Source: Coralloluteibacterium stylophorae
GTDB taxonomy: Bacteria; Pseudomonadota; Gammaproteobacteria; Xanthomonadales; Xanthomonadaceae
Reading direction: 5' to 3'
Length of the DNA stretch: 64,000 nucleotides
Assembly (NCBI RefSeq): GCF_018122625.2
Contig: NZ_JAGQFT020000002.1
Coordinates: 310,001-374,000 of the forward strand
The notes below the pieces were generated by a model that saw only the letters and a list, made by a program, of their open reading frames with translations, made no database searches and was not told the origin of the DNA. The first letter of the stretch is position 1. Each line of letters opens with the position of its first letter. The translations under genes and the position numbers were made by a program. Of this stretch, positions 1,350 to 19,074 are shown piece by piece.

Positions 1350-3083
1350 TCAACCGTCGGCGCGGACGGCGGTGCCGTCGGCGACGGCGGCGTCCAACAG
1401 CTGCCAGACCTGGCGTTCCACCTCGCCCGCCAGGGCGCGATGGCGTTCGCCGAGCGCCTGCTGCCGGCGGCCGAGTTCCTGCTGGCGCGCGGCCAGCGGC
1501 TTCTGCCGTTCGGCGAGCCGGCGCTGCTCGGCGGCGAGCGCCTCCATGTCCTGCTCGAGCTCCTCGTCGACAGCGCCGTGCTCGCCGCGCGCCACCGCCC
1601 GCGCCGCGCGCTGCGCATGGCGCGCGGCGATCTCGCCCTGCTTCGCGCCGAGTTCTCCCTGGCGCGCGCCCAGCTCGCCCTGCTGCGCGCCGAGCTCGCC
1701 CTGGCGCTCGCCCAGTTCGCCCTGCTGCGCGGCGAGTTCGGCCAGCGGGGCATGCAGCGCGTGCAGGCGCTTCAGGGTCGCCGGGTCGCGGATGACCCAG
1801 GCCTCCTCGCCCCTGCGGAACCAGGCCATGGCATCGCCGGATCGGTACTGGCGGTGCGCCGTCTCGACGTCACGGCCGGTGCCGTGCGCCTGCACGTGGC
1901 CGCTGCCGTCGAAGGCGACGTAGGCGCGCGCGCTGCTGCCGTCGTCGATGATGTGCAGCCCGGTGACGCCGGCCGGCATGTCCGGCCCCGACGGCGGCGC
2001 CGGCGGGGCGGGCGGGCGCGGCGCGTCGGGCGCCGGCGGGGCAGGCGGTGCCGGCGGACGGGGCATGAAACCGCTGTCGGATTGCGTGCCGGCCGTGACG
2101 CGATAGGGGACGACGCCCGCGACCGCGACGGCCACGGTGAGGGCCGCGGCCAGGGCGCGGGAGGAGGTGCGGGGGATCTGCAGCATGGCGAGTCTCCGGC
2201 TGAGGATGCGGAAGGTGGGGGAGGCGCCGGCGAGTGCCGCCGGCATGTGCGCACGCGCACCGAGCCGCAGCAGCAGGCGCCCGTAGTCGCGCGGGCTGTG
2301 GCGGCCCTGCGCCAGGACCTCGGCATCGCAGGCCGCCTCGCGTGCCAGCGCGTACTCGCGCACCGCGAGGTGGGCGAGCGGATGGAAGAAGAACAGGTGG
2401 CGCGCGAGCGCCGGCAGCCAGCCCCAGCACAGGTCGTTGCGGCGCAGGTGGGCGAGTTCGTGGCGCAGCATCATGTCGAGGTCGCCGTCGCAGGCCGCGT
2501 GCGAGGCGGGCAGCAGCAGGACCGGCCGCAGCGCGCCGGCGATCTGCGGCGAGGCGATGGCGTCCGACATCCGCAGCGGCGCTGGGCGGCGGATCCCGCA
2601 GGCCTCGGCGAGGGCGGCGTAGTGCAGCAGGACGTCGGCGTCCGTGCAGGCGCGCGACGCCGCGAGGATGCGCCGGGCCGTGCGCAGCCCCAGCAGGGTG
2701 CGGACCACCGCGACCACGACCCCCGCGAGCCATGCGGCCACGAGCAGCTGCGGCCATGTCCATGCCGATGTCGCTGCGCCCGTTGCGGGCGTGGCGGGCG
2801 CGAACGTGCCGGCTGCCGACGCGCCGGGACCGATCGACGCGCCGGGCGCGGGCACGATCGGATCCGCCGGCGCCGCCAGCAGCGGCAGTTCGACCGGTGC
2901 GCTCCACACCAGGCCCACGACCAGCTGCAGCGCGACCAGCCACCACAGCCGGCAGCGCGCCGCCGCGGGCAGTCCGGGCAGGACGCGGCACAGCGCCCAG
3001 ACCGCGGCGACCAGCAGGCTCGACTGCAGCACGGTCGCGCCGAGGCGCGGCAGCAGGAGCAGGGCGAATGCCTCGGGGTTCAT
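1350..3083 (-). CDS. BlaR1/MecR1-like M56 membrane metallopeptidase
   Basis: A 577-aa member of the M56 family. The first ~130 residues hold several hydrophobic segments. The zinc motif HELAH lies at residues 208-212 within MLRHELAHLRRNDL. In BlaR1/MecR1, signal binding outside the membrane activates this protease, which leads to loss of the BlaI repressor. Here the C-terminal ~280 residues contain no penicillin-binding (STxK) sensor. They have a Pro/Ala-rich linker, then about five tandem 7-residue units of the type QGELGxR (roughly residues 449-486, coded around 1626-1740) and further Gln/Arg-rich predicted coiled coil. The start is one base after the stop of the BlaI-like gene, so the pair is co-translated. 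The signal sensed is unknown. Confidence 0.85.
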   Translation of the reverse strand: MNPEAFALLLLPRLGATVLQSSLLVAAVWALCRVLPGLPAAARCRLWWLVALQLVVGLVWSAPVELPLLAAPADPIVPAPGASIGPGASAAGTFAPATPATGAATSAWTWPQLLVAAWLAGVVVAVVRTLLGLRTARRILAASRACTDADVLLHYAALAEACGIRRPAPLRMSDAIASPQIAGALRPVLLLPASHAACDGDLDMMLRHELAHLRRNDLCWGWLPALARHLFFFHPLAHLAVREYALAREAACDAEVLAQGRHSPRDYGRLLLRLGARAHMPAALAGASPTFRILSRRLAMLQIPRTSSRALAAALTVAVAVAGVVPYRVTAGTQSDSGFMPRPPAPPAPPAPDAPRPPAPPAPPSGPDMPAGVTGLHIIDDGSSARAYVAFDGSGHVQAHGTGRDVETAHRQYRSGDAMAWFRRGEEAWVIRDPATLKRLHALHAPLAELAAQQGELGERQGELGAQQGELGARQGELGAKQGEIAARHAQRAARAVARGEHGAVDEELEQDMEALAAEQRRLAERQKPLAARQQELGRRQQALGERHRALAGEVERQVWQLLDAAVADGTAVRADG

Positions 3084-3084
3084 C

Positions 3085-3474
3085 TCATTCCTCCCGCCGC
3101 CGCGACTGCAGCGTCTCGACCAGGCGTTCGAGTTCGGCGAGCTCGTCGTCGCTCACCGTACCGCGCTCCGACATCCAGGCCACGAACGGCGACACCGAAC
3201 CCTGCAGGGTCTTCTCGACGAAGCTGCCGACCGCCTCGCGCATGACCTCGCCGGCGCCGGTGCCGGCGGCGGTGTAGCGGTACACGCCGCGGACCTGGCG
3301 CCGGCGCAGGTAGCCCTTGCCGCGCAGGCGTTCCATCATGGTCAGCACGGTGGAGCGCGCGAGGCCGCGCGACTCGCCGAAGGCGGCGGCGACCTCGCCG
3401 ACCGAGGCGCCGCCGCAGTCGGCGAGGTGGTTCAGCAGCGCCAGTTCCTGGTCCCCGATCGATCGACGTCGCAC
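3085..3474 (-). CDS. BlaI/MecI/CopY-family repressor
   Basis: A 129-aa winged-helix repressor of the Penicillinase_R family. An N-terminal wHTH region contains RSTVLTMMERLRGKGYLRR, and a C-terminal helical dimer region ends in ELERLVETLQ. It starts with GTG at 3474: the frame is closed by TAG at 3490-3492 with no ATG available, and GGAG lies 6 bases before the GTG. It probably represses its own operon with the M56 gene through the two dyads immediately upstream, one ending only a few bases before the ribosome binding site. No beta-lactamase gene is adjacent, so the regulon is unknown. Confidence 0.9.
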   Translation of the reverse strand: MRRRSIGDQELALLNHLADCGGASVGEVAAAFGESRGLARSTVLTMMERLRGKGYLRRRQVRGVYRYTAAGTGAGEVMREAVGSFVEKTLQGSVSPFVAWMSERGTVSDDELAELERLVETLQSRRREE

Positions 3475-3665: not shown

Positions 3666-4667
3666 ATGCCGTCCGAATCGCAAGCCACCATGCGCGCCGC
3701 CGTGCTCGTCGAGCCCGGCCGCTTCGAGGTGCGGGAGGTCGCGCGGCCGCAGCCGGGCGCCGGCGAGGTGCGCGTGCGCCTGCAGGGCAGCGGCGTGTGC
3801 GCATCGAACATCCCGGCGTTCGAGGGGCGCGAGTGGTTCTCCTACCCGATGCCGCCCGGCGACCTCGGCCACGAGGGCTGGGGCGTGGTGGATGCGGTGG
3901 GCGAGGGCGTCGCCGGCATCCGCGTCGGTGAGCGCGTCGCCGCGCTGTCGTTCAAGGCCTACGCCGAATACGACGTGGCCGCCGCCGACCAGCTCGTGGC
4001 GCTGCCGGAGCCGCTCGGCGATGCGCCGTTCCCGGGCGAGGCGCTCGGCTGCGTCATGAACATCCTGCGCCGCGCCGACGTGCAGCCGGGACAGACGGTG
4101 GCGATCGTCGGCGTCGGCTTCCTCGGCGCGGCGCTGACCCAGCTGATCACCGGCATGGGCGCGCGCGTGATCGGCATCTCGCGCTCCGATTCCTCGTTGC
4201 AGCTCGCCAAGGACTGCGGCGCCTGGCAGACGGTGGCCATGCACGACCACTGGGAGATCATCGAGAAGGTCAAGGCGCTCACCGACGGGGCCTTCTGCGA
4301 ACGCGTGATCGAGGCCACCGGTAAGCCGTGGCCGCTGGATCTCGCCGGCGAGCTCACCGGCTTCGGCGGCAAGCTGGTGATCGCCGGCTTCCACCAGGAC
4401 GGCCTGCGTTCGGTCAACGTGCAGCTGTGGAACTGGCGCGGCATCGACGTCATCAACGCGCACGAGCGCGACCCGCAGGTCGCGGTCGAGGGCGTGCGCC
4501 AGGCGGTCCGCGCGGTGGCGGAAGGCCGGCTGTCGCTCGCACCGCTGATCACCCACACGTGGGGCCTCGCCGACATCACCGCGGCGCTCGCCGCGGTGAA
4601 GGACCGGCCCAGCGGCTTCACCAAGGGCGTGGTGCTGATGGAGGAGGCGACCGATGGCGCGCGCTGA
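3666..4667 (+). CDS. Zinc-binding (MDR) dehydrogenase
   Basis: A 333-aa medium-chain dehydrogenase/reductase. The N-terminal GroES-like part has the catalytic-zinc Cys in SGVCASN and the GHEGWG motif. The Rossmann part has GVGFLG at residues 149-154. The four-cysteine structural-zinc loop of classical alcohol dehydrogenases is absent. It should oxidise or reduce a sugar or polyol hydroxyl with NAD(P). ATG at 3666 follows AAAGGAG; an upstream ATG at 3585 would add 27 unlikely residues. It overlaps the next oxidoreductase by 14 bp, so the two are probably co-expressed and act on one substrate. Substrate not determinable from sequence. Confidence 0.85.
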   Translation: MPSESQATMRAAVLVEPGRFEVREVARPQPGAGEVRVRLQGSGVCASNIPAFEGREWFSYPMPPGDLGHEGWGVVDAVGEGVAGIRVGERVAALSFKAYAEYDVAAADQLVALPEPLGDAPFPGEALGCVMNILRRADVQPGQTVAIVGVGFLGAALTQLITGMGARVIGISRSDSSLQLAKDCGAWQTVAMHDHWEIIEKVKALTDGAFCERVIEATGKPWPLDLAGELTGFGGKLVIAGFHQDGLRSVNVQLWNWRGIDVINAHERDPQVAVEGVRQAVRAVAEGRLSLAPLITHTWGLADITAALAAVKDRPSGFTKGVVLMEEATDGAR

Positions 4668-5661
4668 CGGTCGCCTGCGGCTCGGTTTCCTCGGCGTCGG
4701 CTGGATCGGGCGCCATCGCATGCAGGCGCTGGTCGAGGCCGGGCTCGCCGACGCGGCGGCGATCGCCGATCCGGATGTGTCCTGCCTCGACGAGGCGGCG
4801 GCGCTGGCGCCCGCTGCCGTGCGCTGTGGTTCGCTCGACGAGCTGCTCGCGCAGGATCTCGACGGCGTGGTCATCGCCACGCCGAGCGCAGCGCACGCGG
4901 CGCAGTCGATCGCGGTGCTGGAGCGCGGCCTGCCGGTGTTCTGCCAGAAGCCGCTGGGCCGCGACGGCGACGAGGCGGCCGCGGTGGTCGCCGCGGCCAG
5001 GCGCGCCGACCGTCGCCTCGGCGTCGACCTCAGCTATCGCCACCTCGCCGGCATCGACGAGGTGAGGGCGCTGCTGCGCGACGGCGCGCTCGGTCGCATC
5101 TACGCCGGCGAGCTGGTCTTCCACAACGCCTACGGGCCGGGCAAGGACTGGTTCTACGACCGCAGCCAGGCCGGCGGCGGCTGCGTCATCGACCTCGGCA
5201 TCCACCTGCTCGACCTCGGCCTGTGGCTGCTCGGCGATCCTCTGGTCGAGAACGTCAGCAGCCGCTGCTTCGTCAAGGGTGCACCGCTGCGCGAGCATCC
5301 GGAGGCGGTCGAGGACTACGCCACCGCGCGCCTGGATCTCGCCGGGGGCATCGCGCTGGACATGGCCTGTTCCTGGAACCTGCCGGTGGGCGTGGATTGC
5401 GAGATCGGCATGCGCCTGTACGGAACGCGGGGCGGCATCGGCCTGCGCAACGTCGAAGGTTCGTTCTACGACTTCGTCATCGAACGCTTCGACGGCCGCC
5501 AGCGCATCCCGTTGGCGGGCCCGCCCGACGCCTGGGGCGGGCGCGCCGCGGTGGCCTGGGCACATGCCCTGCGCGCGGACGCCGGCTTCGACGCGGAGAT
5601 CGAGGGCGTAGTCGCGGTGACCCGGGTGCTGGACGAGATCTACCGGCAGGACCGCGCCTGA
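4654..5661 (+). CDS. Gfo/Idh/MocA-family oxidoreductase
   Basis: A 335-aa NAD(P)-dependent oxidoreductase. The Rossmann motif GVGWIG is at residues 14-19. The family EKP motif appears as QKP at residues 98-100, with the conserved lysine K99 retained. The C-terminal alpha/beta domain includes GGGCVIDLGIHLLDLGLW, carrying the usual D-x-x-x-H active-site residues. These enzymes act on free or nucleotide-linked sugars, inositols or related compounds. Its start lies inside the end of the zinc dehydrogenase gene, and the tight overlap suggests sequential redox steps on one sugar. Family certain; substrate unknown. Confidence 0.88.
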   Translation: MARADGRLRLGFLGVGWIGRHRMQALVEAGLADAAAIADPDVSCLDEAAALAPAAVRCGSLDELLAQDLDGVVIATPSAAHAAQSIAVLERGLPVFCQKPLGRDGDEAAAVVAAARRADRRLGVDLSYRHLAGIDEVRALLRDGALGRIYAGELVFHNAYGPGKDWFYDRSQAGGGCVIDLGIHLLDLGLWLLGDPLVENVSSRCFVKGAPLREHPEAVEDYATARLDLAGGIALDMACSWNLPVGVDCEIGMRLYGTRGGIGLRNVEGSFYDFVIERFDGRQRIPLAGPPDAWGGRAAVAWAHALRADAGFDAEIEGVVAVTRVLDEIYRQDRA

Positions 5662-5713: not shown

Positions 5714-6754
5714 TCAGACCGCCGCGGCGCCGGACTGGCCGCCGGCACTGCGCCGGGAGCGGCGCGCGCCCTGGAGCAGGCCCTGGTCGTGACGCGCCGC
5801 CTCGATGGTGCGGGCGAGGCCCTCCTCCGCGCTCACCGTCGGCGTCCAGTCGAGCAGTTCCTGGGCCAGCGAGATGTCCGGCCGCCGCCGCTTCGGGTCG
5901 TTCTCCGGCAGCGGATGGAAGCTCAGCGGGGATGCGCTGCCGGTCAGGCGCAGGATCATCTCGGCGATCTCCTTCACCGTGCGCTCGACCGGATTGCCCA
6001 GGTTCACCGGGCCCGGGTGGTCGACCTTCATGTAGCGCACGATGCCTTCGACGAGGTCGGAGACGTACTGCAGGCTGCGGGTCTGCGCACCGTCGCCGAA
6101 TACCGACAGCGGCTCGCCGGCGAGCGCCTGGCGGATGAAGTTGGTGACGATGCGGCCGTCGTGCGGATCCATGCGCGGCCCATAGGTGTTGAAGATGCGG
6201 ATGATGCGCACCGGCAGCCCGTAGTGGCGGTGGTAGGCCATCGCCGCGGCTTCGGCGTAGCGCTTGCCCTCGTCGTACATGCTGCGCGGGCCGTTGGGAT
6301 TGCAGTTGCCCCAGTGCTCTTCCTTCTGCGGATGCTGCAGCGGGTCGCCGTAGACCTCGCTGGTGCTGGCAAGGAAGAACTTCGCGTGCTTCTCGCGCGC
6401 CAGGTCGAGCAGATGATGGGTGCCGAAGCTGTTGACCTCGAGCGTCTCGATCGGCCAGTGCTGGTACTTGGGCGGCGAGGCCGGGCTGGCGAGGTGCATC
6501 ACCCAGTCCAGGCCTTCGTCGAGCGCGAGCGGCTGGATGATGTCGTGTTCGATGAAGCGGAAGCGCGCATGGCCCTGCAGGTGCGCGATGTTCTCCCTGC
6601 GCCCGGTGATCAGGTTGTCCACCGCGATGACGCGGTGGCCGTCGTCGAGGAGGCGGTCCACCAGATGGCTGCCGACGAAGCCCGCGGCACCGACCACGAG
6701 GATCGACAGCGGGCGTTCTGCGGGAAGGGAGAGCACGTTCGTGGTTCTGACCAT
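5714..6754 (-). CDS. UDP-glucuronate decarboxylase-like SDR (UDP-xylose synthase type)
   Basis: A 346-aa extended SDR. The NAD motif GAAGFVG is at residues 22-28 and the catalytic YxxxK is Y160/K164 in MYDEGKRYAE. ASPASPPKYQ, ASTSEVYGDP and GPRSMYDEGKR are hallmarks of the UDP-xylose synthase/ArnA-decarboxylase branch, which converts UDP-glucuronate to UDP-xylose. I chose ATG at 6754 because AGGA lies about 9 bases upstream and the family N-terminus begins there; the frame continues upstream without family similarity. It is divergent from the epimerase at 7227 and may supply a pentose donor to the nearby transferases. The UDP-glucuronate source is not in the cluster. Confidence 0.87.
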   Translation of the reverse strand: MVRTTNVLSLPAERPLSILVVGAAGFVGSHLVDRLLDDGHRVIAVDNLITGRRENIAHLQGHARFRFIEHDIIQPLALDEGLDWVMHLASPASPPKYQHWPIETLEVNSFGTHHLLDLAREKHAKFFLASTSEVYGDPLQHPQKEEHWGNCNPNGPRSMYDEGKRYAEAAAMAYHRHYGLPVRIIRIFNTYGPRMDPHDGRIVTNFIRQALAGEPLSVFGDGAQTRSLQYVSDLVEGIVRYMKVDHPGPVNLGNPVERTVKEIAEMILRLTGSASPLSFHPLPENDPKRRRPDISLAQELLDWTPTVSAEEGLARTIEAARHDQGLLQGARRSRRSAGGQSGAAAV

Positions 6755-7226: not shown

Positions 7227-8342
7227 ATGGGCAAGACCCTTCTCATCACCGGCGGCGCGGGCTTCATCGGCTCCTACCTCGCCGACCAGCTGCTCGAAGC
7301 CGGACACCGCGTGCGCGTGCTCGACAACCTCAGCCCGCAGGTGCACGGCGGCGACTGCGAGCGTCCCGCATACCTGACCGACGACGTGGAGCTGGTGCGT
7401 GGCGACGTGCGCGATCCGGATGCGGTGCAGAAGGCTCTAGAGGGTGTCGACGGCGTCTACCACCTCGCCGCGGCGGTCGGCGTCGGGCAGAGCATGTACC
7501 AGGTCGCCGAATACACCTCGATCAACAACCTCGGCACCGCGGTCCTGCTGGAGGCGCTGATCGAGAAGCCGGTCGAGCGGCTCGTGGTCGCCTCCAGCAT
7601 GAGCATCTACGGCGAGGGCATGTACCGCCGCGGCGACGGCAGCGTGGTGCCGGGCATGCGCCGCGGCCGCGAACAGCTCAAGCAGGCGCGCTGGGAACTG
7701 GTCGACGGCGAGGGCAGGGCGCTCGAGCCGGTGCCGACCGCGGAGGACAAGCAGCCCGACCTGTCCTCGGTCTACGCCCTGTCGAAGTACGACCAGGAGC
7801 GCCTGTGCCTGATGATCGGCGAGGCCTACGGCATCCCGACCTCGGCGATGCGCTTCTTCAACGTGTACGGTCCGCGGCAGGCGTTGTCCAATCCCTACAC
7901 CGGGGTGCTGGCGATCTTCGCCTCGCGCTTCCTCAACGGCAACGCGCCGATGATCTTCGAGGATGGCCTGCAGCAGCGCGACTTCGTCAGCGTCCACGAC
8001 ATCGCGCGCGCCTGCCGCCTCGCCTACGACACGCCCGCCGCGGCGGGGCAGGTGTTCAACGTCGGCAGCGGCAACGCCTACACCGTGCGCGAGATCGCCG
8101 ACCGCGTCGGCCAGGCGATGGGCAAGGACATCGCGCCGGAGATCACCGGCAAGTACCGCGTCGGCGACATCCGCCACTGCGTGGCCGACATCGGCCATGC
8201 GCGCGAGGTACTGGGCTTCGAGCCGCAGGTACGCATCGAGGACGGCCTCGCGGAGCTGGTCGAATGGCTGCCGAGTGCGGTCGCGGTCGACCGCGTCGGC
8301 GAGGCCGGCCAGGAACTGGCCCGGCGCGGGCTGACCATCTGA
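7227..8342 (+). CDS. NDP-sugar epimerase, dTDP-L-rhamnose 4-epimerase-like
   Basis: A 371-aa extended SDR with NAD motif GGAGFIG at residues 9-15 and catalytic Y183/K187 in YALSKYDQE. The sequence VYHLAAAVGVGQSMYQ followed by VASSMSIYGEGMY, with a long insert before the YxxxK, is what I recall for the dTDP-L-rhamnose 4-epimerase group (dTDP-L-rhamnose to dTDP-6-deoxy-L-talose). No rmlABCD genes are nearby, so the natural substrate could differ. ATG at 7227 has GAAAGGAG upstream. It leads a plus-strand run of closely packed genes reaching 15645. Fold certain; the specific epimerisation is tentative. Confidence 0.8.
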   Translation: MGKTLLITGGAGFIGSYLADQLLEAGHRVRVLDNLSPQVHGGDCERPAYLTDDVELVRGDVRDPDAVQKALEGVDGVYHLAAAVGVGQSMYQVAEYTSINNLGTAVLLEALIEKPVERLVVASSMSIYGEGMYRRGDGSVVPGMRRGREQLKQARWELVDGEGRALEPVPTAEDKQPDLSSVYALSKYDQERLCLMIGEAYGIPTSAMRFFNVYGPRQALSNPYTGVLAIFASRFLNGNAPMIFEDGLQQRDFVSVHDIARACRLAYDTPAAAGQVFNVGSGNAYTVREIADRVGQAMGKDIAPEITGKYRVGDIRHCVADIGHAREVLGFEPQVRIEDGLAELVEWLPSAVAVDRVGEAGQELARRGLTI

Positions 8343-8401: not shown

Positions 8402-10447
8402 ATGACCAACAGGCCGAGTTCGGAGACCGGCGCCCGCCCTGGCGTCGGGATGCTGGAATGGTTCCAGACCGGCGATCGCGCCACCGCCGAGGCGCTCGTC
8501 GCCGACCTGCGGCGCCTGGGCGTGGAGCGGCTGCGCTTCGGCGTGTCGTGGGCGGACTTCTTCGGCGACGGCGGCCCGGACTGGTACGACTGGCTGATCC
8601 CGGAGCTGGCGCGGCACTTCGACCTGCTGCCCTGCTTCTCCTACACGCCGCCGTCGCTGGGCGAGACGCCGAGCACCGCCTCGCCGCCACGCGACCTGCG
8701 CGCCTACGCCGACTTCATCGACCAGTGCATCACCCGCTACGGCGCGCACTTCGAGTACGTCGAGCTGTGGAACGAGCCCAACAACGTGCTCGAGTGGAAC
8801 TACGCGCTCGACAGCAGCTGGACCAAGTTCTGCGAGATGATCGGCGCCGCTGCCAACTGGGCGCGGCAGCGCGGCAAGAAGACGGTGCTCGGCGGCGTCA
8901 GCCCGATCGACCCGAACTGGGTCAGGGTGATGTTCCGCAACGGGCTGATGCCCTACATCGACGTCGTCGGCGTGCACGCCTTCCCCGGCAGCTACGACGT
9001 CTGCGGCGACTCCTGCCACGACCAGATCCAGCGCGTGATCGACGTGCTGCGCGAGGAGGGGCACCCGGGCGAGGTGTGGCTGACCGAGACCGGCTACTCG
9101 ACCTGGCGCCACGACGAATTCGCCCAGGTCGACCTCGCCGCCGGGATCCAGGACCTGCCGGTCGGCCGCATCTACTGGCTGACGCTGCGCGACCTCGCCG
9201 GCGACCGTCCGTCCATGGCGGGCCTGCACAACGATCCGCGCGACTACCACTTCGGCATCCAGGACCAGCACGGCCGCCCCAAGCTGCTGTACCGGCTGTG
9301 GTCGGACGGCGGACTGGACGCGGTGCGCGCCGCGGCGCGCTGGCCGACGCGGGCGCCGTCGCGCGAGCCTTTCACCCTGGTCACCGGCGGTGCCGGCTTC
9401 GTCGGCTCCAACCTGGTGTCGCGCCTGGCGCGCGAGGGCCGCCGGGTGCGCATCGTCGACAACCTCGCCCGTCCCGGCGTCGAGAAGAACCTGGAATGGC
9501 TGCGCAGCCAGCACGGCGAGGCGATCGAGTTCGTGCCCTGCGACCTGCGCGACCGGCACGTGCTCAACCACGCGGTCGAGGGTGCCACCCAGATCTTCCA
9601 CCTCGCCGGCCAGGTGGCGGTGACCACCAGCCTCGAGGACCCGATCAGCGACTTCGAGATCAATCTCGCCGGCTCGGTCAACGTGCTGGAGGCCGCGCGC
9701 CGGCAGAAGCAGGTGCCGGGCGTGGTGTTCGCCTCCACCAACAAGGTCTACGGCGGCCTGGAGGACGTGGCGCTCGAGGTGGCCGATCGCCGCTACCAGC
9801 CGGTCGACCCGGCCTACCTGCACCACGGCGTCGGCGAGCACCGGCCGCTCGACTTCCACAGCCCCTACGGCTGCTCCAAGGGCGGTGCCGACCAGTACAT
9901 CATCGACTACGCACGCTGCATGGGCGTGCCGTCGGTGGTGTTCCGCATGAGCTGCATCTACGGGCCGCGCCAGTTCGGCACCGAGGACCAGGGCTGGGTC
10001 GCGCACTTCCTGATCCGCGCCATGCGCGGCGAGCCGATCACCCTCTACGGCGACGGCATGCAGGTGCGCGACATCCTGCACGTCGACGACCTCCTGGACG
10101 CCTACCTCCTGGCGGAGAAGAACCTCGCGCGTTTCTCGGGCCGGGTCTTCAACATGGGCGGGGGCCCGGCGAACACGATCAGCCTGCTGCAGCTGCTCGA
10201 CTGGATTGCCGAACTGGAAGGACGCAAGCCCGAGGTGGATTTCGGCGGCTGGCGCCCGGGCGACCAGCGCTACTACGTCTCCGACACCCGCCGCTTCACC
10301 GAGGCCAGCGGCTGGCGTGCGCGCATCGCCGCGCGCGACGGCGTGGCCGACCTGCATCGCTGGCTGCGCGACTCCTACGTGGTGCCGGTGGCGGCCCGGC
10401 CTGCGGCGCCCGCACCCGTCGAACTGGCATGCGCATCCAACGCCTGA
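8402..10447 (+). CDS. Fusion: clan GH-A glycosidase domain + CDP-paratose 2-epimerase-like SDR
   Basis: A 681-aa two-domain protein. Residues ~15-300 look like a TIM-barrel glycosidase of clan GH-A: WNEP at 123-126 supplies the acid/base E125, and TETG supplies the nucleophile E229. No signal peptide is present, so it should be cytoplasmic. From about residue 324 an extended SDR begins (TGGAGFVGSN), with ASTNKVYGG and catalytic Y489/K493 in YGCSKG. STNKVYG is typical of CDP-paratose/tyvelose 2-epimerases. There is no frameshift or stop between the halves. ATG at 8402 follows GAGGAG. The likely logic is glycosidic-bond cleavage or transfer coupled to making an unusual nucleotide sugar, but neither substrate is known. 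Confidence 0.82.
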   Translation: MTNRPSSETGARPGVGMLEWFQTGDRATAEALVADLRRLGVERLRFGVSWADFFGDGGPDWYDWLIPELARHFDLLPCFSYTPPSLGETPSTASPPRDLRAYADFIDQCITRYGAHFEYVELWNEPNNVLEWNYALDSSWTKFCEMIGAAANWARQRGKKTVLGGVSPIDPNWVRVMFRNGLMPYIDVVGVHAFPGSYDVCGDSCHDQIQRVIDVLREEGHPGEVWLTETGYSTWRHDEFAQVDLAAGIQDLPVGRIYWLTLRDLAGDRPSMAGLHNDPRDYHFGIQDQHGRPKLLYRLWSDGGLDAVRAAARWPTRAPSREPFTLVTGGAGFVGSNLVSRLAREGRRVRIVDNLARPGVEKNLEWLRSQHGEAIEFVPCDLRDRHVLNHAVEGATQIFHLAGQVAVTTSLEDPISDFEINLAGSVNVLEAARRQKQVPGVVFASTNKVYGGLEDVALEVADRRYQPVDPAYLHHGVGEHRPLDFHSPYGCSKGGADQYIIDYARCMGVPSVVFRMSCIYGPRQFGTEDQGWVAHFLIRAMRGEPITLYGDGMQVRDILHVDDLLDAYLLAEKNLARFSGRVFNMGGGPANTISLLQLLDWIAELEGRKPEVDFGGWRPGDQRYYVSDTRRFTEASGWRARIAARDGVADLHRWLRDSYVVPVAARPAAPAPVELACASNA

Positions 10448-11517
10448 TGCTGAGCGCCGACGCCGTCGGCGGCGTCTGGACCTACGCGCTGGAGCTGGCC
10501 ACGGGGCTGGCGGAGCAGGGCATCGAGGTGCTCGTCGCCGTGCTCGGCCCGCCGCCGGCGCCCGAGCAGTGCGCGGCGGCGGAGCGGGTTGCCGGGCTCA
10601 CGCTGCGCCACGGCGATTTCCCGCTGGAGTGGATGCAGGACGCCGTGCCCGAGCAGGCCGCCGCCGGCGAATGGCTGCTCGCGCTCGCGCGCGAGTGGAA
10701 GCCCGATGTGGTCCACCTCAACCACTACGGCCACGGGCACCTCGAATGGCCGGCGCCGGCGCTGGTGGTCGCCCATTCCTGCGTCGGCTCCTGGTTCGAA
10801 TGCGTGCGCGGCGAGCCGGCGGGGCCGGAGTGGGAGGGCTATCGGCGCCTGCTCGCGCGCGGCCTGCAGGGCGCGCCGATGGTCATCGCGCCGACGCAGG
10901 CCATGCTCGACGCGACGCAGCGCCTGTACGGCCCGTTCCGCGCGAGCCGGGTGATCCACAACGGCCGGCGCGCCGCGGACTTCCCCGCCGGCGACAAGGC
11001 GCCGCACATCCTCAGCGCCGGCAGGCTGTGGGACGAGGCCAAGAACGTCGGCACGCTCGCGCGCATCGCCGGAGAGCTGCCGTGGCCGGTGCGGGTGGCC
11101 GGCGACACCGCGCATCCGGAAGGCGGCGACGCCGCGTTCGAGGGCGTGCACCTGCTCGGCCGCCTCGACCCCGCCGCGATGGCGCGCGCCTATGCGCAGG
11201 CGTCGATCTACGCGCTGCCCGCGCGCTACGAACCCTTCGGGCTGTCGGCGCTGGAGGCGGCGCTCGCCGGCTGCGCACTGGTGCTGGGCGACATCGCCTC
11301 GCTGCGCGAGCTGTGGAACGGCGCCGCGGTGTTCGTACCGCCCGACGATGGCGCCGCGCTCGCACAGGCCCTGCGCGGCCTGATCGAGGACGCGCCGCGC
11401 CGCGACGAGCTCGCGCGCCGCGCCCACGAACGTGCGCTCGGCTACGACAGCGCGCGCATGGTCGCGCGCTACCTGCAGACCTATTCCGAACTCGTCCGCC
11501 CGCCGGAGGCCGCCTGA
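10429..11517 (+). CDS. GT4-family glycosyltransferase
   Basis: A 362-aa GT-B glycosyltransferase. The N-terminal domain begins with LMLSADAVGGVWTYA. The C-terminal nucleotide-sugar domain has the GT4 signature ARYEPFGLSALEAALAG (E-x-F-G-L...E). It overlaps the fusion gene by 19 bp. An in-frame ATG at 10447, exactly overlapping the upstream TGA as TGATG, is an alternative start, but it would cut off part of the first beta strand, so I prefer 10429. Soluble, with no membrane helix. It should transfer a sugar with retention of configuration, perhaps using a donor made by the neighbouring SDRs; the acceptor is unknown. Confidence 0.85.
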   Translation: MRIQRLMLSADAVGGVWTYALELATGLAEQGIEVLVAVLGPPPAPEQCAAAERVAGLTLRHGDFPLEWMQDAVPEQAAAGEWLLALAREWKPDVVHLNHYGHGHLEWPAPALVVAHSCVGSWFECVRGEPAGPEWEGYRRLLARGLQGAPMVIAPTQAMLDATQRLYGPFRASRVIHNGRRAADFPAGDKAPHILSAGRLWDEAKNVGTLARIAGELPWPVRVAGDTAHPEGGDAAFEGVHLLGRLDPAAMARAYAQASIYALPARYEPFGLSALEAALAGCALVLGDIASLRELWNGAAVFVPPDDGAALAQALRGLIEDAPRRDELARRAHERALGYDSARMVARYLQTYSELVRPPEAA

Positions 11518-12635
11518 TGCACGTCGTGATGTTCTACCACTCGCTGCTGTCCGACTGGAACCACGGCAACGCGCACTTCCTGCGCGGCGTGGCCAGCGAG
11601 CTGCAGCGGCGCGGGCATCGCGTCACCGTGTACGAGCCGGCCGGTGCCTGGAGCCTCGAGAACCTGCTGGCCGAACAGGGCATGGCGCCGGTGGAGGCCT
11701 TCCATCGCGCCTATCCGGGGCTCACCAGTCACGTGTACCGGTCGGATGCGCTGGATCTCGACGCCGCGCTGGCCGACGCCGATCTCGTCCTCGTCCACGA
11801 GTGGAACGAGCACGACCTGGTCCGCCGCATCGGCCTGCACCGTCGCGACAACGCCGGGAGCTATCGCCTGCTGTTCCACGACACCCACCACCGCGCAGTG
11901 AGCGAGCGCGAGGCGATGGCGCGCTACGACCTCGCCCACTACGACGGCGTGCTCGCCTTCGGCGAGGTGATCCGCGCGCTCTACCTCGAGCAGGGCTGGG
12001 CGCAGAACTCCTGGACCTGGCACGAGGCGGCCGACGCGCACGTCTTCCATCCCTTCGACGACGTGGCGCCGGTGGACGACCTGGTCTGGGTCGGCAACTG
12101 GGGCGACGACGAGCGTACCCAGGAGCTGCACGAATTCCTGCTCGACCCGGTGCGCGAGCTCGGCCTCAGCGGCAGCATCCACGGCGTGCGCTATCCCGAT
12201 ACGGCCAAGGCCGCAGTGGCCGATGCCGGCCTGCGCTACCGCGGCTGGATCGCCAACTTCGACGCGCCGGCCGCCTTCGCCCGGCACCGGGTCACCGTGC
12301 ACGTGCCGCGCCGGCCGTATGTGCGCATGCTGCCGGGCATCCCGACCATCCGCCCGTTCGAGGCGCTGGCCTGCGGCATCCCGCTGGTCTCGGCGCCGTG
12401 GCGCGACGCCGAAGGCCTGTTCGCGCCGGGCGAGGACTTCCTGGTGGCCGAGGATGGGCGAGCGATGCGCCGGCACCTGCGCGCGCTCATCGCCGACGCC
12501 GCCATGGCCGCCGAGCTCGCCGCGCGCGGCCGGCGCACGGTCCTCGCGCGGCATACCTGCGCGCACCGCGTCGACGAACTCCTCGCCATCCACGCCGGCC
12601 TGGTGCCGGCGCCGCTCGAAAGGGAAACCGCATGA
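11517..12635 (+). CDS. CgeB-like glycosyltransferase 1
   Basis: A 372-aa soluble GT-B-like protein of the CgeB type (named for the Bacillus spore-coat maturation protein). It starts with MHVVMFYHSLLSDWNHGNAH. The C-terminal donor domain has VWVGNWGDDERTQEL, then IRPFEALACGIPLVSAPW, the position equivalent to the GT4 E-x7-E region. The start overlaps the GT4 stop as TGATG, a translational-coupling arrangement. With the next two genes it forms a set of three related transferases. CgeB-family enzymology is poorly known; sugar transfer is inferred from the fold and context. Confidence 0.78.
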   Translation: MHVVMFYHSLLSDWNHGNAHFLRGVASELQRRGHRVTVYEPAGAWSLENLLAEQGMAPVEAFHRAYPGLTSHVYRSDALDLDAALADADLVLVHEWNEHDLVRRIGLHRRDNAGSYRLLFHDTHHRAVSEREAMARYDLAHYDGVLAFGEVIRALYLEQGWAQNSWTWHEAADAHVFHPFDDVAPVDDLVWVGNWGDDERTQELHEFLLDPVRELGLSGSIHGVRYPDTAKAAVADAGLRYRGWIANFDAPAAFARHRVTVHVPRRPYVRMLPGIPTIRPFEALACGIPLVSAPWRDAEGLFAPGEDFLVAEDGRAMRRHLRALIADAAMAAELAARGRRTVLARHTCAHRVDELLAIHAGLVPAPLERETA

Positions 12636-13735
12636 ACTTCGCCTTCTTCGGCTCCAGTCTCGTCTCGGCCTACTGGAACGGCGCGGCGACGTACTACCGC
12701 GGCCTGATCCGCAACCTCGCCGCGCGCGGGCACACGATCACCTTCTACGAGCCCGACGCCTTCGAGCGCCAGGCGCACCGCGACATGCCCGATCCCGACT
12801 GGGCGCGCGACGTGGTCTACGGCACCGCCACGCAGGAGCCGATGCGCGCGGCGCTGCGCGATGCGGCCGGCGCCGACGTCATCGTCAAGACCAGCGGCGT
12901 GGGCATCTTCGACGCCGAGCTCGAGGCCGCCGTGCTCGAGCTCAAGCGTCCGCACAACACCGTGATCTTCTGGGACGTCGATGCGCCGGCGACGCTCGAC
13001 AGCGTGCACGCCGATCCGCACAACCCGTTCCGCGCGCTGATCCCGCGCTACGACATGGTCTGCACCTACGGCGGCGGCAGGCCCGTTGTCGACGCCTACC
13101 TCGCGCTCGGCGCGCAGCACTGCGAGCCGGTCTACAACGCGCTCGACACCGCCACCCACCATCCGGTGCCGAAGGATCCGCGCTTCGCCTGCGACCTCGG
13201 CTTCCTCGGCAACCGCCTGCCGGACCGCGAGGCGCGCGTGGAGCAGTTCTTCCTCGCCGCCGCCGCGGCCCGCCCCGGCCAGCGCTTCCTGCTCGGCGGC
13301 AGCGGCTGGGGCGACAAGCCCATGCCGGCCAACGTGGACTACCTCGGCCACGTCTACACGCGCGACCACAACGCCTTCAACTGCACGCCGCGCGCGGTGC
13401 TCAACATCAGCCGCGAGTCGATGGCCCGCTACGGCTTCTCGCCGGCCACGCGCGTATTCGAGGCGGCCGGCGCCGGGGCCTGCCTGATCACCGACCACTG
13501 GGAGGGTCTGGAGCTGTTCCTGGAGCCCGACCGCGAGGTGCTGGTCGCGCGCGACGGCGACGAGGTCGCCGCGCACCTCGATGCGCTGACGCCGGAACGG
13601 GCCGAAGCGATCGGGCAGGCGGCGCTGCGGACGGTCTGCGCCCACCACACCTACGCGCATCGTGCCGAGCAGCTCGAGGCGCTGCTGGAGGGCCGCGCCG
13701 AGCGCGCGGTGCCGGGCCTGGCGGCGACGGCCTGA
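12632..13735 (+). CDS. CgeB-like glycosyltransferase 2
   Basis: A 367-aa CgeB-type protein. It starts with MNFAFFGSSLVSAYWNGAA, followed by GHTITFYEPD, the middle motif CDLGFLGNRLPDRE, and the donor-domain signature TRVFEAAGAGACLITDHWEG. The start ATGA overlaps the previous stop. It shares the N-terminal and donor-site layout with the flanking CgeB-like genes but is clearly diverged from them, so it probably adds a different sugar or acts on a different acceptor. Confidence 0.8.
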   Translation: MNFAFFGSSLVSAYWNGAATYYRGLIRNLAARGHTITFYEPDAFERQAHRDMPDPDWARDVVYGTATQEPMRAALRDAAGADVIVKTSGVGIFDAELEAAVLELKRPHNTVIFWDVDAPATLDSVHADPHNPFRALIPRYDMVCTYGGGRPVVDAYLALGAQHCEPVYNALDTATHHPVPKDPRFACDLGFLGNRLPDREARVEQFFLAAAAARPGQRFLLGGSGWGDKPMPANVDYLGHVYTRDHNAFNCTPRAVLNISRESMARYGFSPATRVFEAAGAGACLITDHWEGLELFLEPDREVLVARDGDEVAAHLDALTPERAEAIGQAALRTVCAHHTYAHRAEQLEALLEGRAERAVPGLAATA

Positions 13736-13742
13736 GGTGGGC

Positions 13743-14828
13743 ATGGACATCGTCATCCTCGGCCTTTCCATCACCTCGTCCTGGGGCAACGGCCATGCGA
13801 CCACCTTCCGCGGCCTGGTCCGCGAGCTGGACGCGCTCGGCCACCATGTCACCTTCCTCGAGCGCGACGTGCCCTGGTACGCCCCCCATCGCGACCTGCC
13901 GCAGCCGCCGTACTGCCGCACCGAGCTGTACGCCGACCTCGCCGATCTCCGCGCACGCTTCGGCAGGACCGTGGCAGGCGCCGACGCGGTGATCGTCGGC
14001 TCCTACGTGCCCAAAGGCGTCGCCGTGGGCGAGTGGGTGCAGGAGACCGCGCAGGGCGTCACCGGCTTCTACGACATCGACACCCCGGTGACGCTGGCAA
14101 AGCTCTCCGCGGGCGACTTCGAATACCTGCACCCGCGCCTGATCCCCGGCTACGACGTGTACCTGTCCTTCACCGGCGGGCCGACGCTCGGACGCCTGGA
14201 GCGGGAATTCGGCTCGCCCTGCGCGCGCGCGCTGCACTGCGCCTTCGATCCCGGCCTCTACCATCCCGAGCCGATGCAGGCGGCCTGGGACCTCGGCTAC
14301 CTCGGGACCTACAGCGACGACCGCCAGCCGCGCGTCGACGGCCTGCTGATGGCACCGGCGCAACGCTGGCCCGAGGGCCGGTTCGTGGTGGCCGGGCCGA
14401 TGTATCCGGGAACCATCGCCTGGCCCGGCAATGTCGAGCGCATCGACCACGTCCCGCCAGACGCGCACCGACGCTTCTACAACCAGCAGCGCTTCACCCT
14501 CAACGTGACCCGCGACGACATGATCCGCGCCGGCTGGTCGCCGAGCGTGCGCCTGTTCGAAGCGGCGGCCTGCGGCACGCCGATCATCTCGGACGTGTGG
14601 GAGGGAATCGAGGCGCTGTTCGTGCCGGGCGAGGAGATCCTGCTCGCCGAGAGCGCGGAACAGGTGCTCGGCTACCTGCGCGACATCGGCGACGCCGACC
14701 GGCGCGCGATCGGCGCGCGCGCCCGCGAACGGGTGATGGCCGAACACACCGCCGGCCATCGCGCCGAACAGCTCGTGGCGGTGCTCCACGAGATCGCCGC
14801 CGACACGCGCCCCGCGCGCACCGCCTGA
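13743..14828 (+). CDS. CgeB-like glycosyltransferase 3
   Basis: A 361-aa CgeB-type protein. MDIVILGLSITSSWGNGHA opens the first Rossmann domain. WDLGYLGTYSDDRQPR and VRLFEAAACGTPIISDVWEG mark the donor domain. ATG at 13743 lies 7 bases after the previous stop, with GAGG overlapping that stop as ribosome binding site. It resembles the second CgeB-like protein more than the first, as judged by eye from the donor-site motif. Probably the last sugar-transfer step before methylation. Confidence 0.8.
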   Translation: MDIVILGLSITSSWGNGHATTFRGLVRELDALGHHVTFLERDVPWYAPHRDLPQPPYCRTELYADLADLRARFGRTVAGADAVIVGSYVPKGVAVGEWVQETAQGVTGFYDIDTPVTLAKLSAGDFEYLHPRLIPGYDVYLSFTGGPTLGRLEREFGSPCARALHCAFDPGLYHPEPMQAAWDLGYLGTYSDDRQPRVDGLLMAPAQRWPEGRFVVAGPMYPGTIAWPGNVERIDHVPPDAHRRFYNQQRFTLNVTRDDMIRAGWSPSVRLFEAAACGTPIISDVWEGIEALFVPGEEILLAESAEQVLGYLRDIGDADRRAIGARARERVMAEHTAGHRAEQLVAVLHEIAADTRPARTA

Positions 14829-14841
14829 TCCGAGGAGAGCG

Positions 14842-15645
14842 ATGACCACCCTGAAAACCCTGCAGTCGCACGGCACCGCCGAAGGCCCGCTCGCCGCCGA
14901 GATCCGCGCGCTCGGCCCCTGGTTCCACAACATCCACCTGCCCGACGGCAGCCAGACCGCACCCGACCATCCACTCGGCGACTTCCCGCGCTTCAAGTGG
15001 GAACGCCTCGCCCCCCACCTGCCGCAGAACCTGGGTGGCATGCGCGTGCTCGACATCGGCTGCAACGCCGGTTTCTACAGCTTCCAGCTCGCCCGCCGGG
15101 GCGCGCAGGTGGTGGCGATGGACCACGACCCGCACTACCTGCGCCAGGCCGGCTGGGTCGCCCGGCAGCTCGGGCTGGAAGGGCGCGTCGAGCTCCGCCA
15201 GGGGGACGTCTACTCCCTCGCTCCGCTGCGTGGGCAGTTCGACCTGGTGCTCTTCCTCGGCGTGTTCTACCACCTGCGCCATCCGCTGCTGGGGCTGGAC
15301 CTCGCCGCCGCCGCGAGCCGCGACTACCTGCTGTTCCAGAGCCTGGCCACGACCGGGCCGGCGGGCGCGGGAGAGACGCGCGATCCCGGCTATCTCGGCC
15401 GCGACGAGCTGCGTCGCGACGACTGGCCCAAGCTCGCCTTCGTCGAGCACGAGCTGGCCGGCGACCCGACCAACTGGTGGGTGCCGAACCCGCCGGCGAT
15501 GCAGGCGATGGTGCGCTCGGCTGGTTTCGCGGTGCGCGGCATGCCCGACGACGACGTCTACCTCTGCCGCCGCACCGCCGCGGCCGACCAGGCCGAAGCA
15601 CGCCTGCACGCGACCCTGACCACGCTGGCGCGCGGCACGCTTTGA
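14842..15645 (+). CDS. SAM-dependent methyltransferase, CmoB-like
   Basis: A 267-aa class I methyltransferase. The SAM motif VLDIGCNAG starts at residue 69. The N-terminal block WFHNIHLPDG followed by DHPLGDFPRFKW is shared with the tRNA (carboxy)methyltransferase CmoB and with a family I recall as TIGR04290 (Rta_06860 type). The position at the end of the sugar cluster, 13 bases after the last transferase, argues for O-methylation of the assembled glycan or its acceptor rather than tRNA modification; CmoA is not here. GAGGAG precedes the ATG. Fold certain; substrate inferred. Confidence 0.83.
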   Translation: MTTLKTLQSHGTAEGPLAAEIRALGPWFHNIHLPDGSQTAPDHPLGDFPRFKWERLAPHLPQNLGGMRVLDIGCNAGFYSFQLARRGAQVVAMDHDPHYLRQAGWVARQLGLEGRVELRQGDVYSLAPLRGQFDLVLFLGVFYHLRHPLLGLDLAAAASRDYLLFQSLATTGPAGAGETRDPGYLGRDELRRDDWPKLAFVEHELAGDPTNWWVPNPPAMQAMVRSAGFAVRGMPDDDVYLCRRTAAADQAEARLHATLTTLARGTL

Positions 15646-15919: not shown

Positions 15920-18900
15920 ATGTTTCGCAACGGGACGACCGTGGATACGCAACGCACACCGCTTGCCATCGTAGGCGTGGGGGCTTCGGCCGGAGGCGTC
16001 GAGGCGCTCCAGGAGCTGGTCAAGCGGCTGCCGACCGACGCCGGACTCGCCGTGATCGTGCTGCTGCACATGGACCCGGAGCGCAAGAGCCTGCTCCCGG
16101 AGATCCTCCGACGCTGCACGTCGCTGCCGATGACCGCCATCGAGGACGGGATCCGCATCGAACCCGACCACATCTACGTGGCCCGGCCGAGGACGGTGGT
16201 GACGGTCGTCGATGGCGTGCTGCGGGTGCGCCTGCCGGCGGGTGACGGGCAGCGCGAGCCGCTCGTCATCGACACCTTCATGAACTCGCTCGCCCACGAC
16301 CAGGGGCAGCGCTGCGCCGGCGTCGTGCTCTCGGGAACCGGGCACGACGGTTCGCTTGGGCTGAAGGCGGTTCGCAGCGCGGGCGGCCTCACCGTGGTCC
16401 AGGGCAGCGACGGCAGCTCGCCGAGCCATGAGGGCATGCCGGCCAGTGCGATCGCCACCGGCGCAGTCGACCTGATCCTGCCGATCGAGGAGATGCCCGA
16501 GCGGCTGCACGCCTACTTCGCGCGGCGTCGCGACGCGGACTGGGTCACCGCGCCGACCAAACCGCAGGTGGAAACCCGCCACCGCCTGGAGATCTGCGCG
16601 ATGCTCAACGCGCAGACCGGCCACGACTTCAGCCACTACAAGCGCCCGACCTTCATGCGTCGCGTCGGACGGCGCATGCAGGTGCTGGGCCTCACCCAGC
16701 TCGACGACTACGTGCAGGCGCGGCGTGAGGACGGGGACGAGGTCAACCTGCTCCTGCGCGACCTGCTGATCGGCGTCACGTCCTTCTTTCGCGATCCCGA
16801 GACGTTCGAAGCGCTCGAGCGCGAGGTCGTCCCGCGCCTGTTCGAGGGCAGGGGCGAGCGCGACACGGTGCGCCTGTGGGTGCCGGGCTGCGCGACCGGC
16901 GAGGAGGCCTACTCGCTCGCCATGCTGCTGAGCGAGCATGCCAGCGGCTTGGCCCAGGCGCCGCGCGTCCAGATCTTCGGCACCGACATCGACGACGCCG
17001 CGATCGGCGTGGCCCGCGCCGGGCGCTATCCGCACTGCTGCTGGAGCGGATCGGCGCCGAGCGACGCGAGCGGCACTTCGCCTGCATCGAGGGCGTCTTC
17101 GTGGTGCGCAAGCACATCCGCGACCTCTGCACCTTCTCGTCGCACAGCCTGATCCGCGATCCGCCGTTCTCCCGCATCGACATGGTGTCGTGCCGGAACC
17201 TGCTGATCTACATGGACACCGAGCTGCAGGCGCAGGTGTTCCCGGTATTCCACTATGCGCTCGGGCACAACGGCGTGCTGCTGCTCGGCGGGTCCGAGAC
17301 GATCACCCGGCATGCCGAGCTGTTCGAGCCGATCGACAAGAAGCACCGCATCTTCCGTCGCATCGACCGGCCGAGCCCGCCGCTGCAGCTGGCCTCGTCG
17401 ATGGTCTCCTCCACCCACGTGCCGAGGACACCCGCGGTCGCTCCGCGGCCGCGGGTCGGGCCGAGCGGCATGATCGCGCGTGCGGCCGGCGCGCGGGTGC
17501 TGGACCTGTACGCGCCGCCCTTCGTCGTGGTCAATGCCGACGGCGAGATCCTGCACTACTCGGCGCGCACCGGGCGCTATCTGGAGGCGGCGGCGGGTGC
17601 GCCCAGCAACAACGTGCTCTCGCTGGCGCGCCGGGGCCTCGCCGTGGAGCTGCGCGCGGCGCTCAGGCGCGCCGTCGACAACGGCCTCGGCAGTACCCGC
17701 GAAGGCCTGGTCGTGGAGAGCGAGCAGGGCACGAGCATCATCGACCTGCTGGTCGATCCGCTGCGCGGCGGCGTCGAGACCGGCTATCTCGTGGTCTTCC
17801 GCGAGCATGAGCTGGCGTACGGACCGCGCAAGGCGATCACCGCCGACGACCATGGACAGGTCGTGAAGCAGCTCGAATACGAGGCGCGCGACCTGCGCGA
17901 ACAGTTGCAGGCCGCGACCGAGGAATACGAGACCGCCGTCGAGGAGCTGAAGTCGGCCAACGAGGAGCTGCACTCGATCAACGAGGAGATGCAGTCGGCC
18001 AACGAGGAGCTGGAGACCTCGAAGGAGGAGATGCAGTCCATGAACGAGGAGCTGCACACCGTCAACCACGAGCTCAGCGTGAAGGTGGACGAGGTCGACC
18101 GCGCCAACAACGACCTGCGCAACCTGTTCGAGAGCACCCAGGTGGCGACGATCTTCCTCGACCGCAACCTCATCATCCGTGCGTTCACTCCGGCGGTGGT
18201 CAACATCTACAACCTGATCCCCAGCGACCAGGGTCGGCCGCTCACCGACATCGTCAGCCAGATCGACTACGAGCTGCAGAGGGAGGACCTCGAGCATGTG
18301 CTCGGTCGCCAGCTGCCGGTCGAGCGGCGGGTGGCGCGCCGCTCCGGCGATGCGCATTACCTGATGCGGGTGTTGCCGTACCGCGCCTCGGACAATTCGG
18401 TCGACGGCGCGCTCGTCACCTTCGTCGAGGTCACCAGCATGATCGCGGCCGAGCGCCAGCAGACGCTGCTGGTCGACGAGCTCAACCACCGCGTCAAGAA
18501 CATGCTCACGGTGATCATGGCGCTGGCGCAGCAGACCCTGCGGCGGGCGGGCTCGCTGGAGGAATTCGGCAGGAGCTTCACCGGACGCCTGCAGGGGCTG
18601 TCGACCGCCTAATCGCTGCTCTCCAGCGAGAAATGGTCGCAGGTCGGACTCGCCGAACTGGTGCGGCAGGAGATCGAGCCGCATCTCGCCGACGGCACCC
18701 TGGACAGCAGCGGCCCCGAGGTGCTGCTGGCGCCGGCCGCCGCGCTCGCCTTCGGGATGATCCTGCACGAACTCGCGACCAACGCGATCAAGTACGGGGC
18801 ACTGTCGCGGTCCGGGGGGCGGATCACGGTGGCGTGGGAGGTCGTGGTGGCGGACGCGGCGCCGCGCCTGCACCTGACGTGGAGCGAGCATGGCGGCCCG

Positions 18901-19074
18901 GCCCCGGTTCCTCCGCAGCACAACGGCTTCGGCAACGACATGATCGAGCGGACGCTCCGGTACCAGCTGGCGGGCAGCGTCCGCTACGGGCATCCGTCAG
19001 AAGGTCTGCGCGTGGAGATCGAGGTCCCGTTCGAGGACTGCATCTCCGTGCGCGCCGCCGGCGTACCGGCGTGA
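15920..19074 (+). pseudogene. CheB-CheR-PAS-HWE histidine kinase, disrupted by a frameshift and a stop
   Basis: Conceptually a single ~1050-residue signalling protein. A CheB methylesterase domain (GVGASAGGVEA; SGTGHDGSLG) is followed by a CheR methyltransferase domain (VTSFFRDPE; GCATGEEAYSLA), a long coiled coil of repeated ELKSANEEL-type units near 17940-18090, a PAS domain, an HWE/HisKA_2 dimerisation segment (LNHRVKNMLTVIMALAQ) and an ATPase domain (LHELATNAIKYGA). The frame shifts near 17032 within CheR, consistent with loss of one base after CCG at 17030-17032. A TAA at 18610-18612 sits in frame between the dimerisation and ATPase segments, where coding resumes immediately. The first fragment ends at 17152. 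Either the gene is dead, or one or both lesions are sequencing errors. The start at 15920 is uncertain; GTG at 15941 is an alternative. Confidence 0.82.

Follow-up and report, generated by a model that had tools for sequence, protein, structure and literature searches.

The window, as we refer to the 64,000-nucleotide stretch of the Coralloluteibacterium stylophorae genome that was analysed, contains a single open reading frame that encodes a 681-residue protein with a glycosidase-like N-terminal half and an epimerase-like C-terminal half (Table 1). An AGGAG sequence 6 bases ahead of ATG 8402 is a plausible ribosome-binding site; the start itself had to be inferred, because the frame stays open upstream to position 6926. 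A first-pass annotation of the sequence had proposed that a glycosidase-fold domain with both catalytic acids is joined here to an epimerase with its own motifs, and the uninterrupted frame bears this out, with E125 and E229 in the first half and Y489 and K493 in the second. The domain had also been described as lacking an export signal and this too is confirmed: no hydrophobic stretch is found at the N-terminus, the maximum 15-residue Kyte-Doolittle mean across the first 50 residues being 0.66.

Table 1. Features of the fusion gene, of the cluster around it and of a second module found at other loci (L numbers). Long loci are the 68 loci over 18 kb.
Feature	Position	Strand	Evidence or occurrence
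Zinc-dependent dehydrogenase	3690..4667	+	in 55/68 long loci
Gfo/Idh/MocA oxidoreductase	4720..5661	+	in 49/68 long loci
UDP-glucuronate decarboxylase (UDP-xylose synthase)-like SDR	5714..6754	-	2b69, E 4.2e-108; in 15/68 long loci
Second sugar-nucleotide SDR (SDRb)	7227..8342	+	in 67/68 long loci
GH-A::SDR fusion protein	8402..10447	+	one frame; model pLDDT 90.6, pTM 0.89; fusion uninterrupted in 79/80 loci
PslG-like (beta/alpha)8 glycosidase domain, residues about 12-312	8435..9337	+	predicted fold; structure and profile comparison including Foldseek
E125, putative acid/base, end of strand 4, in WNEP	8774..8776	+	82 E, 4 K in 86 rows
E229, putative nucleophile, end of strand 7, in TETG	9086..9088	+	84 E, 2 A in 86 rows
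CDP-tyvelose 2-epimerase-type extended SDR domain, residues about 324-656	9371..10369	+	sequence and fold match
T446-N447-K448, TNK segment of TaTyvE	9737..9745	+	T and N in 85/86 rows, K in 86/86
Y489-x3-K493, SDR catalytic pair, in YGCSK	9866..9880	+	each in 84/86 rows
GT4-type glycosyltransferase	10444..11517	+	in 68/68 long loci
PF13524 glycosyltransferase a (GTa)	11517..12635	+	in 68/68 long loci
PF13524 glycosyltransferase b (GTb), cluster marker	12632..13735	+	in 68/68 long loci
PF13524 glycosyltransferase c (GTc)	13737..14828	+	in 67/68 long loci
TIGR04290 family methyltransferase	14842..15645	+	307.4 bits, cut-off 300; in 49/68 long loci
Second conserved module with inositol-3-phosphate synthase	L148:7906-17727; L210:18230-20963; L199:8403-13906

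The biosynthetic setting ascribed to the gene is upheld by other genomes, since the same cluster set accompanies the fusion in distant bacteria across the 68 long loci, with EPI itself in 68/68. In some genomes a B12-radical-SAM protein of family TIGR04295 replaces the dehydrogenase pair (L147:7397-8698; L172:3448-4740), with a match of 723 bits against a cut-off of 400 in the one row tested, as if this protein and the zinc dehydrogenase with its Gfo/Idh partner were two routes to the same modification. Cluster members pass the curated cut-offs of both NCBIfam models, TIGR04290 and TIGR04295, and therefore curators had already noticed parts of this cluster; both models, however, are of the type 'hypothetical equivalog' with no named product, and no mention of either accession was found in the open-licence literature. 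A conserved protein of ~90 residues with no Pfam match lies beside the cluster in several genomes (L150:14819-15103; L172:824-1096). Elsewhere in the window a gene for a CheB-CheR-PAS-HWE kinase appears to be in pieces (15977-19445), its CheR domain divided over the overlapping frames 15977-17152 and 17101-18612 and its kinase over the second of these and a third frame (18661-19074), which points to a broken gene or to sequence errors. On the reverse strand (1350-3474) a pair comprising a BlaR1-type M56 peptidase and a penicillinase-repressor-type regulator adjoins a GH16 gene; no beta-lactamase was found among the 30 window proteins scanned.

One role suggested at first reading was recycling, in which the glycosidase would free a sugar and the fused epimerase would bring it back into the nucleotide-sugar pool. 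The physical fusion is the one observation that speaks for it. A free sugar is no substrate for the epimerase without kinase and nucleotidyltransferase steps, and no sugar kinase family was found among 20 neighbouring window proteins scanned around the gene, which leaves the suggestion without support; we regard it as very improbable.

Residues 326-656 closely match the CDP-tyvelose 2-epimerases 9RL0 (TaTyvE; E 6.9e-84) and 1ORR (E 6e-82), with the next molecule at 1.5e-38. The features of a CDP-tyvelose 2-epimerase-type SDR that were tested are found in this half: besides the YxxxK pair and the TNK segment, the NAD motif glycines G329, G330, G332 and G335 are present in all of the 86 fused rows, three of which repeat genomes. 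Because this half retains the residues to which attention is drawn in TaTyvE (TNK, Gln and Tyr/Lys; PMC13098431), the sequence makes it likely that the SDR half carries out C2 epimerisation of an NDP-sugar.

A fold search with the whole protein gave SDR chains alone among the matches listed, and the GH half was therefore predicted alone. The resulting AlphaFold2 model is a confident (beta/alpha)8 barrel (pLDDT 93.6, pTM 0.91). Among solved structures PslG resembles it most (Z 28.2, rmsd 2.9 over 293 residues), with other GH39 and GH1 enzymes following at Z about 24-25; by name, nearly all of the matches listed for this half are GH39 and GH1 type glycosidases. Both folds named in the first-pass annotation were thus recovered, the predicted barrel lying nearest PslG and the SDR half matching SDR chains. 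Pfam searches found nothing above cut-off in residues 1-315 (best GH1, E 0.13) or in the GH halves of two relatives. Pfam gave no GH39 match. When a profile was built from 64 GH halves, it recovered PslG at E 1e-4 and GH39 xylosidases at 0.0057, and aligned E125 and E229 with the glutamates of the PslG motifs WNEP and TEWG. In the model these two residues end strand 4 (119-122) and strand 7 (224-230), so that the half combines the characters of clan GH-A, namely a (beta/alpha)8 barrel, an Asn-preceded Glu ending strand 4 and a Glu ending strand 7.

The two glutamates are strongly conserved (Table 1), with a catalytic Glu missing in 6/86 fused rows. The counts for E125 are partly biased, since one of the two scan patterns contains this residue; rows with only the other pattern give 41 E and 4 K. 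The invariance that the first-pass annotation proposed to check holds for the great majority of these rows, but fails for 8 of the 57 fused rows in which the presence or absence of a second, permuted copy of the glycosidase is known, each of these eight lacking a catalytic Glu.

Scanning genomes with the GH half yielded 195 relatives, and the 80 best of them were retained for analysis. The fusion is uninterrupted in 79 of these 80 loci from other genomes; a script counted 76/80, and L066, L098 and L111 are also in frame but were missed because the match ran past the stop. The loci fall in seven named phyla (Bacteroidota, Pseudomonadota, Thermodesulfobacteriota, Verrucomicrobiota, Armatimonadota, Cyanobacteriota and Gemmatimonadota), which rules out a fusion private to one genome. 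In a sample of the order to which the window belongs, the GH half matched in 8/299 genomes (the window itself, four further fusions, a permuted form and two weak matches), and the gene is thus rare and patchy. Rhizobium etli p42b carries the fused gene; in strain CFN42 the fused gene is RHE_RS22270. The Gellertiella hungarica fusion (L120:9950-11431) is in frame, with a stop at the catalytic Tyr of YxxxK in its epimerase half, and Microvirga aerophila (L113:7762-13165) has two epimerases in one cluster, one diverged and GH-fused (45% identity) and one standalone (56%). No publications on the fusion, the permuted form or the cluster were found in the titles and abstract openings of the open-licence literature.

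The chief new finding is that the glycosidase also exists in a second, standalone form, which is circularly permuted. The first-pass annotation had proposed a search for genomes with the two halves as separate genes. Such genomes do occur: their operon has the epimerase without the glycosidase, which is encoded by a separate, permuted gene, in several cases no more than about 10 kb away. The permuted protein (294-317 residues) begins at strand 4 (MIEA..WNEPNN) and has strands 1-3 last. Its profile matches PslG in two out-of-order stretches (E 2.3e-7 for the whole, 9.7e-5 for one stretch, the other weak alone), and once the permuted sequences are rotated, 19/22 rows match the GH-half profile over its full length in one piece. 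The active-site residues R, N, E, H, E and W are retained in all 22 rows, 21 of them distinct. In a quick tree with no bootstrap, a branch with SH-aLRT 100 separates all 21 permuted rows from the fused ones, and the sequences thus fit a single permutation event. One deeper permuted row passes PF11790 Glyco_hydro_cc (24.9 bits, cut-off 21).

Across the genomes examined, the permuted gene has as neighbours genes for an inositol-3-phosphate synthase, a histidine phosphatase, a methyltransferase paralogue, a GTc paralogue, a nucleotidyltransferase and sometimes PIG-L, the full set not being present in every genome. The histidine phosphatase comes near to TIGR03848, at 197.7 bits below a cut-off of 203.85, and the logic of this inositol module resembles that of the first steps of mycothiol synthesis. 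On pSymB of Sinorhizobium meliloti the permuted gene, annotated as 'beta-xylosidase', lies about 8 kb from an epimerase without a GH half. The order sample has the permuted gene in 1/298 genomes, a cluster carrier. Among plasmid records 146 match GTb, 97 match the permuted gene and 50 match at least 80% of the fusion; these sets, which contain many near-copies and are not intersected, can be said to echo the reciprocal pattern described below.

The occurrence of the two forms was compared in genomes found through GTb, a marker blind to the glycosidase, which was present in 7/369 genomes of a class survey and 14/398 of a phylum survey, the window being counted in both. The 19 other GTb genomes comprise 12 with the epimerase alone, all of which have the permuted form, four with an intact fused GH half, none of which has it, and two whose fused genes have lost E125 (G346 and G491, where N124 is lost as well), both of which have it; the last, G630, is an incomplete genome in which the permuted form was present and no close epimerase was found. 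When these 19 were pooled with protein-found genomes and 48 of the 80 scan genomes, repeats removed, the permuted form was present in 14/14 genomes with the epimerase alone, 8/8 with a fused gene that has lost a catalytic Glu and 3/49 with an intact fused gene. Fisher's test gives p 1.8e-15 for this pattern, ignoring relatedness, in a set that mixes GTb-found and protein-found genomes and into which G136 entered via its permuted copy.

Two further analyses bear on this pattern. On the tree of epimerase halves there are 12 changes of the intact state (10 when two long branches are left out), which yields only 4-5 well-supported independent pairs; the permuted gene changes in the opposite sense in 3.3-4.3 of these on average and shows no difference in 0.7, and no pair goes the same way. 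The median sign-test p values are 0.25 and 0.125, the phylogeny-corrected test falling short of significance because there are too few independent changes. Relaxed constraint was then assessed at sites at least 95% conserved among 46 fused rows without the permuted gene, in comparison with 11 rows having it. In the GH half the median deviation is 9.2% with the permuted gene versus 1.5% without (one-sided p 3e-4), although the way the sites were chosen favours this outcome. The control is the epimerase half of these proteins, which gives 1.1% versus 1.0% (p 0.24). Individual genomes depart from the trend. In L046 and L061 the permuted gene is present and the fused half undecayed, and in L116 it is present while both glutamates are retained and 9/65 sites deviate. 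L099 has no permuted gene, yet shows 8 deviations in the GH half, and in L034 and L065 W259 is replaced with no permuted copy.

The persistence of the domain in the eight fused rows without E125 or E229 could mean that the GH half has no catalytic role and instead, as a scaffold or by binding sugar, positions the epimerase or the glycosyltransferases. The replacement of W259 in two rows is in keeping with this, as is the model of the whole protein, in which a pTM of 0.89 suggests a fixed arrangement of two domains of similar size. Catalysis is nevertheless favoured over a dead domain, because all eight genomes concerned carry a permuted glycosidase with an intact dyad. The invariance of that dyad in all 22 permuted rows and the 14 genomes that have the epimerase with no GH half also argue against a scaffold, and we consider such a role improbable.

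That the glycosidase half is, in the bacteria sampled, missing or disabled only where the genome has a permuted copy at another place suggests a required catalytic step in the building of an unknown glycan. We propose that the gene product is a two-step cytosolic pathway enzyme. Its C-terminal half would be an NDP-sugar C2-epimerase of the CDP-tyvelose 2-epimerase type, its family read from sequence and residues and its substrate presumed. The N-terminal half would be a retaining, PslG-like clan GH-A beta-glycosidase with E125 as the putative acid/base and E229 as the putative nucleophile, and might perform a required hydrolysis or transglycosylation on a glycan intermediate made by the four glycosyltransferases of the cluster. 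The permuted standalone form could supply the same activity in trans, and where it is present the fused half tends to have lost its catalytic residues or is absent. We infer a working dyad and one reaction common to both forms, which would be a step in the cluster pathway. On balance we think it probable that the protein is such a two-step enzyme and that the glycosidase acts in a required step on the cluster glycan, in cis or, via the permuted form, in trans. Against a required step stand the small number of well-supported pairs (4-5) and the exceptions L046, L061, L099, L034 and L065.

The permuted form in the inositol module might also have a different job. The two forms would then not be equivalent, the permuted one serving inositol-glycoside synthesis and the decay of the fused one having some other cause. 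The grouping of the permuted gene with inositol-3-phosphate synthase, the phosphatase and the methyltransferase paralogue is consistent with this, as are L046, L061 and L116, which hold both forms with both glutamates in the fused one. Separate jobs leave unexplained, however, why the fused activity is lost only with a permuted copy (22/22 versus 3/49) and why the permuted gene is met in cluster genomes only, and we think this explanation unlikely.

Alternatively, the glycosidase could serve in quality control or clearance, breaking off-path or stalled glycan in the cytosol, outside the main route. PslG, the closest fold, comes from one of three clusters (Psl, Pel and alginate) described as each encoding a hydrolase or lyase beside the synthesis genes (PMC11912335). 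Each of the 14 phylum-sample genomes with the marker has one form or the other; at E 1e-20 a glycosidase of either form was found in exactly the genomes with GTb and in none of the other 384. This is more than an optional clean-up predicts. The Pel and alginate cluster enzymes, moreover, act outside the cytosol. PslG is likewise described as mainly periplasmic (PMC11912335), whereas the domain here has no signal and is fused to an NDP-sugar epimerase. We therefore give clearance only a small chance of being the main role.

Returning to the required step, the product may, as a guess from the second module, be a glycosyl-inositol. A bolder and more tentative extension, which we hold to be possible though doubtful, is that evolution has turned a GH-A glycosidase into a committed biosynthetic enzyme of the cytosol, probably a transglycosidase, in a widespread pathway of glycosyl-inositol type, and that its placement has been solved twice, as a domain fused to the epimerase or as a free, permuted protein of the inositol module; each would replace the other, the fused form decaying beside the free one. 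Glycosidases are usually read as degradative. Here co-occurrence with a gene cluster, together with the natural 'mutants', suggests an obligatory intracellular glycosidase step in the making of a glycan, whose genes are found in at least seven phyla, tractable rhizobia among them. Enzyme evolution has here provided an unusual natural experiment, the apparent swap of a fused domain for its circular permutant, and S. meliloti, with the permuted form, and R. etli, with the fused one, offer a direct genetic test of function.

Other known systems invite comparison. TaTyvE (9RL0) and 1ORR resemble the SDR half in sequence and, besides TNK and YxxxK, in the Gln of DQGW; their chains of about 340 residues consist of the epimerase alone, whereas here it is fused, and the VAM segment is mostly VAV in the fused epimerase halves. 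PslG, a GH39 enzyme of the Pseudomonas aeruginosa Psl cluster, shares the barrel fold, both aligned glutamates and, as described, its encoding in a glycan synthesis cluster (PMC11912335). It differs in having about 19% identity, a longer chain, a reported signal peptide (PMC11912335) and no SDR partner listed, whereas the GH half here lacks a signal, forms part of a fusion and has a relative that is permuted. The analogy with PslG extends to fold and setting only.

GH70 glucansucrases, described as a permuted relative of GH13, provide a parallel for the natural circular permutation of a glycosidase catalytic barrel. They belong to another clan than GH-A. GH70 enzymes are also described as usually secreted, whereas the enzymes here have no signal and are of the clan GH-A type, and here, in contrast to GH70, the permuted and normal forms seem to replace each other in one pathway.
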